Shown here: piece by piece, positions 15,554 to 25,238 of the stretch
Numbering within the stretch: the first letter of the stretch is position 1
How the letters are laid out: every line of letters starts with the position of its first letter
Origin: Thermoplasmata archaeon
GTDB taxonomy: Archaea > Thermoplasmatota > Thermoplasmata > Lutacidiplasmatales > UBA184
Direction: 5' to 3'
DNA length: 49,831 bases
Assembly (NCBI GenBank): GCA_027365105.1
Contig: DAHXNZ010000002.1
Coordinates: 149,916-199,746, forward strand
Position numbers and translations under genes: made by a program
Notes under the pieces: model-generated
Seen by the model: only the letters and a program-made list of their open reading frames with translations
The model's database searches: none
What the model was told of the DNA's origin: nothing

Positions 15554-16594
15554 ATGACCGACCGGCCCGCCCTCCGCGAACGGGCGTTCCACGGCTGGCT
15601 GAAGCGGCATCTGGTCGCGGGACGGGAGGGACGGCTTCCCTTGGGCGACGACGCGGCGGCGCTCACCCCGCCGACCGGCCGGGTGGCCGTCTGGACGATC
15701 GACGCCCTGATTGAAGGGACCCACTTCCCTCCCGCCGCGCCGCCGCGATGGATCGGGCGGGCCGCCGCCGGGGTGAGCCTCTCCGACCTGGCCGCCAAGG
15801 GGGCGACTCCCGACGGCCTCGTGATCGCCCTCCAGATCCCCCCGGGGACCCCCGACGCGTGGGCCCGGGCGGTCCTGCTCGGCGCGGAGCGGGCGGCGGC
15901 CCGGTTCGGGGCGCGGGTGGTCGGCGGGGACACCAAGGCCTCCCCCACTCCGGCCGTCGTCTCCTCGGCACTGGGCTGGGCGCGGCCCGACCGGCTCGCG
16001 CCCCGCACCGCCGCCCGGCCCGGCGAGGTCGTGGCCGTGACCGGCGTCGTGGGCCGGGGCGGCGAGGCGGCGCGACGCTTCTTCCGTCGCCCGGACGATC
16101 CCCGGGCGCAGCGGAACCTGCTCGACGTTCGGCCCCGGGTGGCCGAGGGGAGGATCCTCGGTCGGCTCGCCTCGGCGATGCTCGACACCTCCGACGGGCT
16201 GGCCGAGGCGGCCCGGCTCCTGGCCGCGGCGAGCCGGGTCTCGATCGACCTCGACGAGGGACGGATCCCCTGGGCCGACGGGCTGGCGGCCGCCCCACGG
16301 AGGGAGCGACTCCGCTGGGGTTTTTTCGGCGGGGACTACGAACTCCTGGCGACGATCCGGCCGGACCGGCTCTCGGCGGCCCGGTCGGCCGTCGCGCGGA
16401 CCGGGGGCCGGCTGACCCCGATCGGGACCGTCACGGCCGGGCGGCGGGCCCGGCTCGTCCGCCGCGGCCGGCCCGAACCGCTCGGTCCATCGACGTGGGA
16501 CCCGTTCGCCCGCCGGGCCGGGCGCGGACGGCGGTCGCCCCGTGTTTCATCGTCTCAGGGAGAGCGGTACGCTCAAGTAGGCACTCCCACCTGA
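15554..16594 (+). CDS. thiL: Thiamine-monophosphate kinase
   Basis: The 346-residue product carries ThiL signatures in order: L-P-L-G-D-D-A-A-A-L, W-T-I-D-A-L-I-E-G-T-H-F, L-S-D-L-A-A-K-G-A-T-P, V-V-G-G-D-T-K-A-S, M-L-D-T-S-D-G-L-A-E-A and F-F-G-G-D-Y-E-L-L. The Asp residues bind Mg-ATP. ThiL phosphorylates thiamine monophosphate to the active diphosphate. The C-terminal about 35 residues beyond W-D-P-F are Arg/Ser-rich and not conserved. Their DNA (16530-16594) probably also contains the gdhA promoter. Confidence 0.92.
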   Translation: MTDRPALRERAFHGWLKRHLVAGREGRLPLGDDAAALTPPTGRVAVWTIDALIEGTHFPPAAPPRWIGRAAAGVSLSDLAAKGATPDGLVIALQIPPGTPDAWARAVLLGAERAAARFGARVVGGDTKASPTPAVVSSALGWARPDRLAPRTAARPGEVVAVTGVVGRGGEAARRFFRRPDDPRAQRNLLDVRPRVAEGRILGRLASAMLDTSDGLAEAARLLAAASRVSIDLDEGRIPWADGLAAAPRRERLRWGFFGGDYELLATIRPDRLSAARSAVARTGGRLTPIGTVTAGRRARLVRRGRPEPLGPSTWDPFARRAGRGRRSPRVSSSQGERYAQVGTPT

Positions 16595-21536: not shown

Positions 21537-22526
21537 TTACTCCAGGAGCGCGGCGGCCTCGGCCTGAAGGAGGGTCAGCGTTTGGGTGATGGCCGGGGCA
21601 AGACCGGACGGGGGGGATATCCCGAAGGAGGTCGAGCAGGGGGAGTCGTTGACCACGCTCGAAGCCGAGACCACACCGGTCGTCGACCCCAGGGTGGCGT
21701 TGAAGGTGTTGCCGGTCGACCCCGCGGTTTCGGTGAGGCCGCAGGTCGTGTAGGCCAGGGTCCAAGTGCTCGGGATCGAGAGGCCAAGGTAGCTCAGGCC
21801 CCCGATGACCGCGTAGGAGGTGGTCAGGTTCGAGTTGGCGGCCAGGAAGGCGCTCGCGTTGGACCGGACCGCCTGGGTGACCTGAGGACTGTTGAGCACC
21901 GAAGGGGAGAGGGGCTGGAAGTAGGAGTTGTACACCGTGGAGCAGCTCCCGGTGAGCGTCAGGGCCGGAATGGCGGACGCCCCGTTGTCGAGGAAGAGCA
22001 CAAGATCACTCCCGTTCCCGTACAGGAAGAACCAGACCGAGCCCAGTCCCCCGGTCGTCGGGTTGGCGGCCGGCAGATGGACCGACGAGGGAAGCCCGGA
22101 GGCGGGGGTCGCGGTGCACCCCGGGCTGGAGAGGTTGTTGACCGAATCCGTCGACTGGGTCGAGGCGATCGGGGTCGAGATGCCGGCGGCGAGGTAGGTC
22201 TTCCAGCTACCGGAGCCGTAGGCCTTCGCCGATTGATTGGCCTGGTTCCACGCGGTCGCGAATGTGGAGGGGGTCCCGGCCGGTGAGGAGCCTCCGCCGC
22301 CCCCCCCGTTGGAGTGGAGGCCCGGAATCGGGATCACACCGGCGACGCCCAGCCCGACCACCGCCAGGACGACGATGATCACCACGGCCCCCCCGATGAG
22401 GGCGCCCGTGTGGGACTTCCGGGAGGGAATCGGAGGGAGCGGCGTCGGCGACGGTACGGTCGCGGTCGGCGGCGAGGGTGAGGGTGTCGAAGTGGGGGGC
22501 GTCGCCGGCGTTTCGGTTCCCGACAT
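21537..22526 (-). CDS. Membrane-anchored surface protein, Ser/Thr/Asn-rich ectodomain
   Basis: The 329-residue product has a Pro/Ser/Thr-rich cytosolic N-terminus (residues 1-38), one hydrophobic anchor (A-L-I-G-G-A-V-V-I-I-V-V-L-A-V, about residues 42-65), a poly-Gly linker and a long Ser/Thr/Asn/Gly-rich ectodomain. Seven N-x-S/T sequons are present (NQS, NLS, NGS, NAS, NLT, NAT, NDS), fitting N-glycosylation outside the cell. Paired cysteines occur late in the chain (for example P-G-C-T, G-S-C-S, T-T-C-G, S-P-C-S). No enzyme motif is visible. Function unknown. A weak TATA-like caatta lies about 26 nt before ATG 22526. Confidence 0.7.
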   Translation of the reverse strand: MSGTETPATPPTSTPSPSPPTATVPSPTPLPPIPSRKSHTGALIGGAVVIIVVLAVVGLGVAGVIPIPGLHSNGGGGGGSSPAGTPSTFATAWNQANQSAKAYGSGSWKTYLAAGISTPIASTQSTDSVNNLSSPGCTATPASGLPSSVHLPAANPTTGGLGSVWFFLYGNGSDLVLFLDNGASAIPALTLTGSCSTVYNSYFQPLSPSVLNSPQVTQAVRSNASAFLAANSNLTTSYAVIGGLSYLGLSIPSTWTLAYTTCGLTETAGSTGNTFNATLGSTTGVVSASSVVNDSPCSTSFGISPPSGLAPAITQTLTLLQAEAAALLE

Positions 22527-22917: not shown

Positions 22918-24057
22918 TCAGCGGTTTGGCCCGTCCACGAAGGCCTCGATCGAGTGGATCGCCGGAAACTGGTACGGCAGCATGGCCCAGTCTCGGCCGC
23001 CGTTCGCCGACCAGACGACCCGGCCGGTCGTGGTCCCGGCGTAGAGGCCGGCCGGGTCGAGCCGGTCCGCGGCGAGTCCCTCCCGATGGACGGCGTGGCG
23101 GCCCGGGAACGGGTTGCCCCGGATCAGGGGGCGCCACCGGCGGTCCCGGTCGGTGTACTGGTAGATCTGGAGCCCGTCACCGAGGGTCGTCCGGCTCTGG
23201 GGGTCGAGCGGCAGGAAGAAGGCCCGGCCCGGCAACGCCTCCGCCGTCGCGACGCCGAAGCCGAACCGGCTCGGGAGTCCGCGGCCGACATCGGTCCAGC
23301 CGTCGTCCATCCCGTCGCGGCTCACGTACATCCCGCAGTGGTCCTGTCGGTAGATCGTCTGGGGGTTCTTCGGATCGAGCGCGATCTTGTGGACGCACTG
23401 GCCGACCTCGGGATACCGGTCGGGTTGGAAGTCGGCCCGGACACCCCGGTTGACCGGCCGGAAGCTCTCCCCAAGGTCGTCGGAGCGGAAGGTCCCGGCG
23501 GCGGAGATCCCGACGTAGAGACGGCCCGGGTGGGCCGGGTCGAGCAGGACCGTGTGGACGCACGGCCCGCCGGCGCCGGGGTTCCATCGGTCGCGCGTCG
23601 GGTGCTCGGTGAGGCCCCGGACCTCGGTCCAGCTCCGGCCATGGTCGTCGCTGCGGAAGAGGAGATGAGGGTCGGCCCCGAGCAGGAGCGTCTCGGGCTG
23701 GTCGGCAGGGCCGGGGGTGAGGTGCCAGAGGTTACGGACCGAGCGGGCCGGGGCCGAGGCGTCGGGCGGCCCCATCCCCGGGGTTCGCTGGGATCGTCGG
23801 GGGAGCCGGGGGGTCGGGGCCTCCCGCCAGCGGGTTCCGCCGTCGGTCGACCGGTAGACCATCGGCCCCCAGAAATCGTTGTTCGCCAAGGCGTAGAACT
23901 CGCCCGGATGCCGGGGATCGGCGGTGAGGTGGTAGACGTCGCTCCCGTCCGCGATCACGGGGCCGACCTTCCAGCGGCGTCGGGCCGCGTCGCTCCGGAG
24001 AAGATAGCCCCCCTTCCGGGTCCCGACCATGAGCACCACCCGCTCCGGGCGCGCCAT
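22918..24057 (-). CDS. BNR/Asp-box beta-propeller protein (sialidase/sortilin-like fold)
   Basis: The 379-residue product opens V-V-L-M-V-G-T-R-K-G-G-Y-L-L-R-S-D, and shows repeated Asp-box motifs: Y-R-S-T-D-G-G-T-R-W, F-R-S-D-D-H-G-R-S-W, F-R-S-D-D-L-G-E-S-F and W-S-A-N-G-G-R-D-W. These mark a multi-bladed propeller of the BNR family. No signal peptide is visible, so it appears cytoplasmic. The family includes glycosidases but also many non-enzymatic binders; the sialidase catalytic Arg triad is not evident. It begins 6 bp after the MoaD-like gene, so the two are co-expressed, an association I also recall from bacteria. Confidence 0.8.
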   Translation of the reverse strand: MARPERVVLMVGTRKGGYLLRSDAARRRWKVGPVIADGSDVYHLTADPRHPGEFYALANNDFWGPMVYRSTDGGTRWREAPTPRLPRRSQRTPGMGPPDASAPARSVRNLWHLTPGPADQPETLLLGADPHLLFRSDDHGRSWTEVRGLTEHPTRDRWNPGAGGPCVHTVLLDPAHPGRLYVGISAAGTFRSDDLGESFRPVNRGVRADFQPDRYPEVGQCVHKIALDPKNPQTIYRQDHCGMYVSRDGMDDGWTDVGRGLPSRFGFGVATAEALPGRAFFLPLDPQSRTTLGDGLQIYQYTDRDRRWRPLIRGNPFPGRHAVHREGLAADRLDPAGLYAGTTTGRVVWSANGGRDWAMLPYQFPAIHSIEAFVDGPNR

Positions 24058-24063
24058 CGTGGC

Positions 24064-24327
24064 CTAGCCCCCCGCGATCGAGTGGAGGATGTCGACCCGG
24101 TCGTCCGGTCCCAGGGTCACGCGGGGGTCGAGGCCGTCCACCGGCTCCCCGTTCACGAAGACCCGGACGAACCGGCGGATCGCCCCGGCGTCGTCCCGCA
24201 TCTTCCCCTGGAGCCTCGGATACCGCGTTTCGAGCGTCCCGAGGAGCTCGGTCAGATCGCGGGCGGAGAGCCGGGCCTCCGGCGGCGCGCCGAACTCGGC
24301 CAGCCAACGGTCAAGGTGGACCTCCAT
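24064..24327 (-). CDS. MoaD/ThiS-like small protein ending in Gly-Gly
   Basis: The 87-residue product has the beta-grasp pattern: R-F-V-R-V-F-V-N-G-E-P-V-D-G-L-D in the middle, L-G-P-D-D-R-V-D-I-L-H-S-I-A-G-G at the end. The C-terminal di-glycine is the site that, in MoaD, ThiS and archaeal SAMP proteins, is adenylated and turned into a thiocarboxylate or an isopeptide bond. It may donate sulfur or modify proteins; no E1-like MoeB/UbaA gene is visible nearby. Its only neighbour in the operon is the BNR propeller protein, a possible partner or substrate. Confidence 0.82.
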   Translation of the reverse strand: MEVHLDRWLAEFGAPPEARLSARDLTELLGTLETRYPRLQGKMRDDAGAIRRFVRVFVNGEPVDGLDPRVTLGPDDRVDILHSIAGG

Positions 24328-24434: not shown

Positions 24435-25238
24435 GTGGCCGCCGACACCCCCGGACGGGTGGCCGAGGACGGGTCGCCGTATCCCGACCGCTCCCGTCCG
24501 AGCTTCGAAAAGGAGGTCCGGGCGATGTTCACCCACATCGCCGGCCGGTACGAGTGGTTCGACCACCTCGCCTCGGTCGGCCAGGACTACCTCTGGAGGC
24601 CCCGGGCCCTCTGGGCGCTCGACCGGTTCCGCTCCCCCGGCCCGATCCGCCGGATCCTCGATCTGGGGTGCGGGACCGGGGAGTTCCAGCGGCTCGCGGC
24701 GCGCCACTACGGCTCCGCCGTGGTGGTGGGAGGCGACTTCACCGCCGCGATGCTCCGCCGGGCCCGGGCGCTGGGCGAGCGGACCCGGCAGCGGGACCGA
24801 CTCGCCCACCTGCGCGCCAATGCCCTGGCCCTCCCGTTCGCCGACGCGAGCTTCGACCTCGTCCTCAACGCGTTCGTGCTGCGCAACCTCTCCGACATCG
24901 ACCGGGCCTTCCGCGAGATGCGGCGGGTGCTGAGGCCCGGCGGCGTGCTCGTGACCCTCGAGATCGGGGAGCCGGTCCGACCGCTGATGGGAACCCTCTT
25001 TCATGCCTACTTCGACCACGTGGTGCCCTGGATGGGCCGCAGCGTGAAGAGCGCCGGCCCGTACCGCTATCTCCCCGAATCGCTCCGCACCCTGCCGCCC
25101 CGCGCCGAACTCCTCGATCGGATGCGCACCGCCGGCTTCGGCCGGACCGCGGCCGACCCGCAGTCGATGGGCATCGTCACGACCTTCCTCGCCGAGGCCG
25201 GTGCCGAGGCGCCCCCGGGCGGCCATCCGAGACGTTAA
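24435..25238 (+). CDS. UbiE/MenG-like SAM methyltransferase (quinone biosynthesis)
   Basis: The 267-residue class I methyltransferase has UbiE traits: M-F-T-H-I-A-G-R-Y-E-W-F-D before the SAM motif I-L-D-L-G-C-G-T-G-E, then D-F-T-A-A-M-L-R-R-A, F-D-L-V-L-N-A-F-V-L-R-N-L-S-D and E-M-R-R-V-L-R-P-G-G. The substitution of A-F-V-L-R-N for the usual A-F-G-L-R-N is minor. Such enzymes C-methylate demethylmenaquinone. UbiD and UbiA genes at 44.8-47.1 kb support a quinone role. GTG 24435 is 26 nt from a TATA-like cttaatc, so translation is leaderless with a GTG start. Confidence 0.8.
   Translation: MAADTPGRVAEDGSPYPDRSRPSFEKEVRAMFTHIAGRYEWFDHLASVGQDYLWRPRALWALDRFRSPGPIRRILDLGCGTGEFQRLAARHYGSAVVVGGDFTAAMLRRARALGERTRQRDRLAHLRANALALPFADASFDLVLNAFVLRNLSDIDRAFREMRRVLRPGGVLVTLEIGEPVRPLMGTLFHAYFDHVVPWMGRSVKSAGPYRYLPESLRTLPPRAELLDRMRTAGFGRTAADPQSMGIVTTFLAEAGAEAPPGGHPRR

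Follow-up and report, generated by a model that had tools for sequence, protein, structure and literature searches.

The gene pair in the window

The window, i.e., the whole stretch of 49,831 nucleotides from a Thermoplasmata archaeon that was analysed here, carries on its minus strand two adjacent genes, one for a small beta-grasp protein and the other for a seven-bladed Asp-box propeller. Both show a third-position GC of 0.92–0.93, which supports the two open reading frames (ORFs) as genes. The relevant features are as follows:

24064..24327, minus strand: small beta-grasp gene of ThiS/MoaD type (ubiquitin-like), 87 aa, ending in ...ILHSIAGG and then TAG (from the ORF)
24067..24072, minus strand: codons of the C-terminal Gly-Gly of the small gene (from the sequence; Gly-Gly counts are from uncut ORFs)
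24058..24063, minus strand: 6-bp gap from the small gene's stop codon to the propeller gene's ATG, in the same frame (from the sequence)
22918..24057, minus strand: Asp-box (BNR) propeller gene, 379 aa, ATG start (from the ORF, the phmmer match to 3b7f, Foldseek and conservation)
24435-25238: UbiE/COQ5-type methyltransferase, divergent neighbour of the pair
15554-16594: AIR-synthase-family protein

The first-pass annotation had described a two-gene unit with a 6-bp gap, made of a MoaD/ThiS-like protein with a terminal Gly-Gly and an Asp-box propeller, and our analysis agrees on each of these points. The small protein matches the Pfam ThiS family (PF02597) with 30.3 bits, above the cut-off of 22.5, and ends in AGG, that is, with the C-terminal Gly-Gly of the ThiS/MoaD family. 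The propeller is homologous over nearly its full length (residues 6-372) to PDB 3b7f, with a phmmer E value of 1.5e-60, and contains four Asp-box motifs according to a pattern search. The further remark that no cofactor gene lies nearby was too loose, since the window also holds the methyltransferase and the AIR-synthase-family protein, the latter being ThiL-like in our reading. At 10 archaeal loci, no relative of the methyltransferase, of the next aminotransferase or of a 329-aa ORF (21537-22526) was seen in the ~1.5 kb on either side of the pair.

Distribution of the pair in archaea and bacteria

Within the phylum of the window, 20 of 243 genomes show a propeller match at E <= 0.001. The archaeal propeller match is strong (E below 1e-60) in 10 genomes, counting that of the window; a GG beta-grasp gene is adjacent in all 10, and a truncated archaeal propeller (L015) has one as well. 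An archaeal sister group, which is a more distant family in the same class (221–253 bits by profile), shows no pairing at its seven loci in five genomes, and the remaining weaker archaeal matches likewise have no adjacent small gene.

Among the 296 Actinomycetota genomes sampled, 89 have a propeller match at E <= 1e-20. The survey covers 76 strong loci from 75 genomes, with one strong partial match (G490) left out. The small gene is downstream at 33 of these loci, upstream at 16, fused at 12, and there is none at 15. One locus (L195) cannot be judged, because its contig breaks off in the direction in which the small gene is found in its nearest relatives; the proportion of paired loci is thus 61 of the 75 that can be judged. 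A contig scan that began from a Streptomyces sequence gave, among the matches listed, 80 loci that are all from Streptomycetaceae, with further relatives beyond these, and none of the 80 has the small gene adjacent. Five further Actinomycetota propellers (L122, L181, L182, L185 and L186) are also without an adjacent partner.

Other bacterial phyla were sampled through plasmid records, of which 27 have a propeller match. Of the 17 examined, 14 have a strong match, with the pair present in 10, which come from Pseudomonas aeruginosa, Cupriavidus, Burkholderia, Paraburkholderia, Mitsuaria, Arthrobacter and Nonomuraea. The unpaired strong propellers are those of all three Rhodobacterales records and one from Streptomyces, and the three weak plasmid matches are unpaired as well. 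No relative was found in viral contigs. Overall, the survey of co-occurrence that the first-pass annotation had proposed reveals that the pairing reaches both archaea and bacteria, so it is not confined to one genome. In databases the two proteins are labelled 'MoaD/ThiS family protein' and 'exo-alpha-sialidase', or 'hypothetical protein'.

Several individual loci deserve mention. The propeller match on a Paraburkholderia phymatum plasmid (L205) is in two pieces with no partner found, and is possibly a decayed copy. A Rhodobacter propeller without a partner (L031:104-3631) lies beside the ergothioneine genes egtB and egtD, which belong to another sulfur pathway. Two Actinomycetota pairs (L155 and L171) group with the Burkholderia/Pseudomonas type in the trees of both the small protein and the propeller, and this placement suggests a horizontal transfer of the pair.

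Fusions and gene order

At the 12 fused Actinomycetota loci the small domain is joined in frame to the N-terminus of the propeller, while the window itself is unfused. The junction reads ...AISGG or AVSGG, followed by a linker of 4–24 residues and then the propeller. That is, the MoaX-like architecture, with the carrier N-terminal and the Gly-Gly intact at the junction, is found in 12 of 12 fusions of the Actinomycetota sample. On a tree of 107 propellers, which includes 8 of the 80 Streptomycetaceae loci, 13 changes are needed to account for the state of the small gene (upstream, downstream, fused or absent). Scored by itself, fusion takes five, four of them forced by well-supported branches, and the order of the small gene flips between upstream and downstream. 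Taken together, fusion, flipping and the conservation of the Gly-Gly argue that the two proteins are a physical and functional pair, and the sequences indicate that the association of the two genes is selected.

No third gene common to several clades was seen beside the pair in the 1.5–2.5 kb flanks of 79 paired loci. The pair was also considered as a piece of a larger operon, which we rejected: clear flank genes recur in at most five other loci of one clade, and the most widely recurring flank ORFs (up to 38 loci) cross the pair in other frames, as judged from coordinates.

The Gly-Gly of the small protein

The Gly-Gly is kept in 79 of the 80 propeller-linked strong cases that can be judged, window included, and is terminal in only 50 of these 79. 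At the 80 strong loci outside the window, 49 small proteins end in Gly-Gly, 17 carry a tail behind it, 12 are fusions, one (L145) is truncated where its contig stops, and another has no Gly-Gly. The tails are 1–25 residues long, with 16 of the 17 between 1 and 7. The loss of the Gly-Gly in homologues, which had been named beforehand as an observation that would speak against the proposed system, does not hold apart from this single exception, a Nonomuraea protein (L197:2572-2883) that stops just short of it; here the Gly-Gly has either been lost naturally or is missing through an error in the sequence. The description of the Gly-Gly as free is right for the window, but elsewhere the Gly-Gly is often not free: it is internal in the 12 fusions, and further residues come after it in the 17 tailed proteins above. 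In a 44-row alignment of the small protein P37 and R51 are invariant; this alignment was trimmed at the Gly-Gly and is thus uninformative on its conservation.

According to PMC1949818, a free C-terminus is required both for sulfur carriage and for conjugation. Since activated carriers need such a free end, an internal Gly-Gly must be either released by proteolysis or used for docking. Tails of 2–6 residues behind the Gly-Gly are also present in CysO-like proteins, both Streptomyces-type and other actinobacterial (L223, L224, L226, L228, L237, L238 and L244), which may need trimming as well. Since tails also occur on these proteins, which are not linked to a propeller, a tail alone is no argument against activation.

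Family placement of the small protein

By profile, the nearest solved relatives of the small protein are 4n6e and 3dwg, which we take to be CysO-type carriers, followed by 1v8c, MoaD (2m19) and SAMP1 entries. The best NCBIfam match is SAMP1 (NF041918), where its 32.7 bits lie below the cut-off of 60, and the match to moaD_arch (TIGR01687) is also below the cut-off (23 bits against 49.5), so that membership is indicated in neither family. Propeller-linked and CysO-like proteins cannot be told apart by their score against the small-protein profile. A tree of 115 rows, which has few columns and weak deep forks and leaves out L145, L178 and L197, places 33 of the 36 unlinked rows in a clade (97/97) with none of the 79 propeller-linked rows, and the linked rows are thus not grouped with CysO. 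Three unlinked rows on long branches (L210, L240 and L241) fall outside this clade, and the linked rows are not recovered as one clade.

CysO-like proteins are encoded elsewhere in 18 of the 18 searched actinobacterial genomes whose propeller has no partner next to it, and Streptomycetaceae may use such a protein in trans. The same search in the five archaeal sister-group genomes gave a weak match in one.

Fold and conserved residues of the propeller

In a Foldseek search with the predicted propeller model, 3b7f ranks first (E 2.1e-33), far above GH74 enzymes, sortilin and YCF48; the Sortilin-Vps10 and BNR models of Pfam match the protein below their cut-offs. Of the aligned strong propellers, 106 of 106 share W111, W158, H168, H223, Q238, H240, W254 and R325 as well as several Gly; this set includes the window, loci with or without a partner, and 8 of the 80 Streptomycetaceae loci. 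In the predicted strands, H168 and H223 lie at inner-strand starts and R325 just before one, while K15, Q238 and H240 lie at the end or hairpin of the next strand. The usual propeller topology puts these strand starts and next-strand ends on one face. Judging from the predicted strands, the three His, the Gln and the Arg (H168, H223, Q238, H240 and R325) would form a conserved polar pocket on that face.

The seven partnerless archaeal relatives keep all five of these residues, while K15 is changed in five and R289 in seven of them. Since the pocket residues persist where no partner is adjacent, the pocket is not explained by Gly-Gly binding alone. The first-pass annotation had proposed a dedicated binding partner for the small protein: this fits a conserved and sometimes fused unit, but the propeller appears to have a pocket of its own and there are lineages without an adjacent partner, which would make it more than a mere receptor.

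We also modelled a read-through chain of both proteins. The propeller part is good (10-residue blocks mostly 76–92, with loop dips to 36 and 47), while the small domain is poor (blocks 35–56), because the alignment input consisted of Streptomycetaceae propeller rows only; with a pTM of 0.70, the model is uninformative on docking.

E1 and JAMM genes elsewhere in the genome

It had been noted that no E1 enzyme is nearby. Actually, there is no ThiF match on the contig of the window, but an E1 is present on another contig, where the sole over-cut-off ThiF match of the genome lies in a 479-aa ThiS-ThiF-rhodanese fusion. A JAMM (Prok-JAB) gene lies directly upstream of it (L209:3615-6271), and a class-V aminotransferase and an ABC ATPase are near this locus, which in our reading are SufS- and SufC-like. 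A second JAMM is located on a further contig and MoaE on yet another. A role of the small protein as the MoaD of the molybdenum cofactor was considered and set aside, as this MoaE does not sit beside the pair.

ThiF is over the cut-off in 53 of 53 chosen genomes with the propeller versus 11 of 14 controls (12 of 14 for any match). JAMM is present in 26 of 26 chosen propeller genomes, including 12 of 12 with fusions, versus 8 of 14 controls (7 of 14 over the cut-off). As E1 is near-universal and JAMM is common in the controls, their presence discriminates little. Among the fusion genomes there are weak spots: the E1 of G383 is in frame-shifted pieces, and in G512 the E1 is partial and the JAMM weak (31 bits). 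By coordinates, JAMM and E1 lie within ~2 kb of each other in 8 of the 12 fusion genomes.

Possible roles of the pair

Conserved pairing, fusions and the internal Gly-Gly, together with the precedent of MoaX, lead us to favour carrier-client sulfur transfer over its rivals. Tentatively, and on the evidence of sequences, the small protein may well be a sulfur carrier that serves the propeller as its dedicated client, with proteolysis where it is fused or tailed. The E1-rhodanese protein of the genome would activate the C-terminal Gly-Gly to a thiocarboxylate, and the thiocarboxylate tail would be presented to the propeller on docking, where the conserved pocket (H168, H223, Q238, H240 and R325) could be the acceptor or active site for sulfur transfer, by analogy with MoaD and MoaE or CysO and CysM. 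In the fused and tailed forms a JAMM-type protease would first have to release the Gly-Gly, in line with the cleavage of MoaX. These steps have precedents in the literature. MoaX is a MoaD-MoaE fusion in which, as PMC4326299 states, a cut between Gly82 and Ser83 is required for activity and both Gly are needed; a MoaD-MoaE fusion is cleaved by DRJAMM according to PMC8832034; and a single E1-rhodanese protein, MoeZR, sulfurates MoaD1, MoaD2 and CysO as described in PMC3227635.

The small protein might instead be a constitutive subunit that is never activated, whose Gly-Gly tail binds non-covalently to the propeller or serves to complete its pocket, with no E1 chemistry and with the fusions staying intact. 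An internal Gly-Gly in 12 fusions, tails of 1-25 residues in 17 proteins and its lack in one homologue would all be natural for such a subunit, and several Foldseek relatives are in complexes with peptides, as their entry titles say (YCF48 with a D1 peptide, sortilin with a PGRN peptide, and DAIP with a thermolysin fragment). We nevertheless regard it as unlikely, though it is the strongest of the rivals. Strict conservation of the Gly-Gly is a mark of activated carriers. Besides, the five shortest fusions have the Gly-Gly only 4–5 residues ahead of the propeller domain, and the first strand, from the predicted strands and the usual topology, would start on the face opposite the pocket; with so short a linker and such a start, it seems difficult for an intact chain to dock into its own pocket.

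Two other roles are less probable still. A ubiquitin-like modifier of the SAMP1/Urm1 kind, linked covalently to the propeller itself or to proteins that it recruits and removed again by JAMM, with the propeller as target or adaptor, agrees with SAMP1 as the best, if below-cut-off, NCBIfam match and with a genome that encodes JAMM and E1 together. It also has a precedent in the reversible regulation by SAMP1 and HvJAMM1, where covalent linkage is said, in PMC4443979, to inhibit molybdopterin synthase. The rhodanese domain on the E1 fits sulfur transfer, and a fixed single partner with fusions is unlike a general modifier, which makes this role quite improbable. That the propeller is a sialidase or another glycosidase with an accessory protein seems very improbable, even though it is annotated as 'exo-alpha-sialidase' or 'sialidase family protein' and shares the Asp-box propeller fold with GH74 enzymes: the FRIP-type motif of GH33 sialidases occurs in none of 178 strong members (first 120 residues) and is absent from the window as well, the propeller of the window has no strongly hydrophobic N-terminus and matches the BNR models below their cut-offs, and the neighbours in the annotated strong records are not glycan-degrading genes.

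If the small protein is a carrier for the propeller, the pair could, somewhat more speculatively, belong to a sulfur-transfer (or ubiquitin-like) pathway common to archaea and bacteria, in which a propeller enzyme accepts a dedicated GG carrier outside molybdenum-cofactor, thiamine and cysteine synthesis and the fusions are matured by proteolysis. We found no description of a beta-grasp/propeller pair in the open-licence PMC literature. One figure legend on domain architectures, in PMC1949818, lists a beta-propeller abbreviation, and this figure may hold an earlier sighting of the pair. That is, the parts are known and the pair is visible in annotations, while the partnership is absent from the open-licence PMC literature searched. 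GG beta-grasp proteins stand near the origin of ubiquitin, and each carrier-client pair characterised so far has brought a pathway to light. The present pair is widespread (archaea, Actinomycetota, Burkholderiales and Pseudomonas), its propeller is annotated as a sialidase and has a solved homologue, and the natural fusions make it directly testable whether the Gly-Gly is activated, cleaved or merely docked.

Comparison with known systems

The solved homologue 3b7f (Reut_B4987), an Asp-box propeller whose function is listed as not known in PMC2716378, has the same residue at H168, H223, Q238, H240 and R325, but another residue aligned to W111. In YCF48, an Arg patch of a related propeller binds carboxylates and the D1 tail wraps outside (PMC10403576); the parallel is a loose one only, since the D1 tail runs along the outside of the propeller. 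SAMP1/Urm1-type modifiers share with our small protein the fold, the Gly-Gly, and JAMM and E1 in the genome, whereas NF041918 is matched below its cut-off and the small protein here has a fixed propeller partner. CysO, which works with CysM, Mec/JAMM and MoeZ, is similar in that 3dwg and 4n6e are close solved relatives and E1 and JAMM occur in the genome, but it falls in a separate clade of the tree, and no cysM gene was seen beside the propeller pair. Finally, the fused molybdopterin synthase MoaX / MoaD-MoaE of M. tuberculosis and D. radiodurans likewise has a GG beta-grasp carrier adjoining or fused to its client, with the Gly-Gly kept at the junction; the differences are that the client here is an Asp-box propeller instead of MoaE, and that cleavage is proposed here from the sequence.
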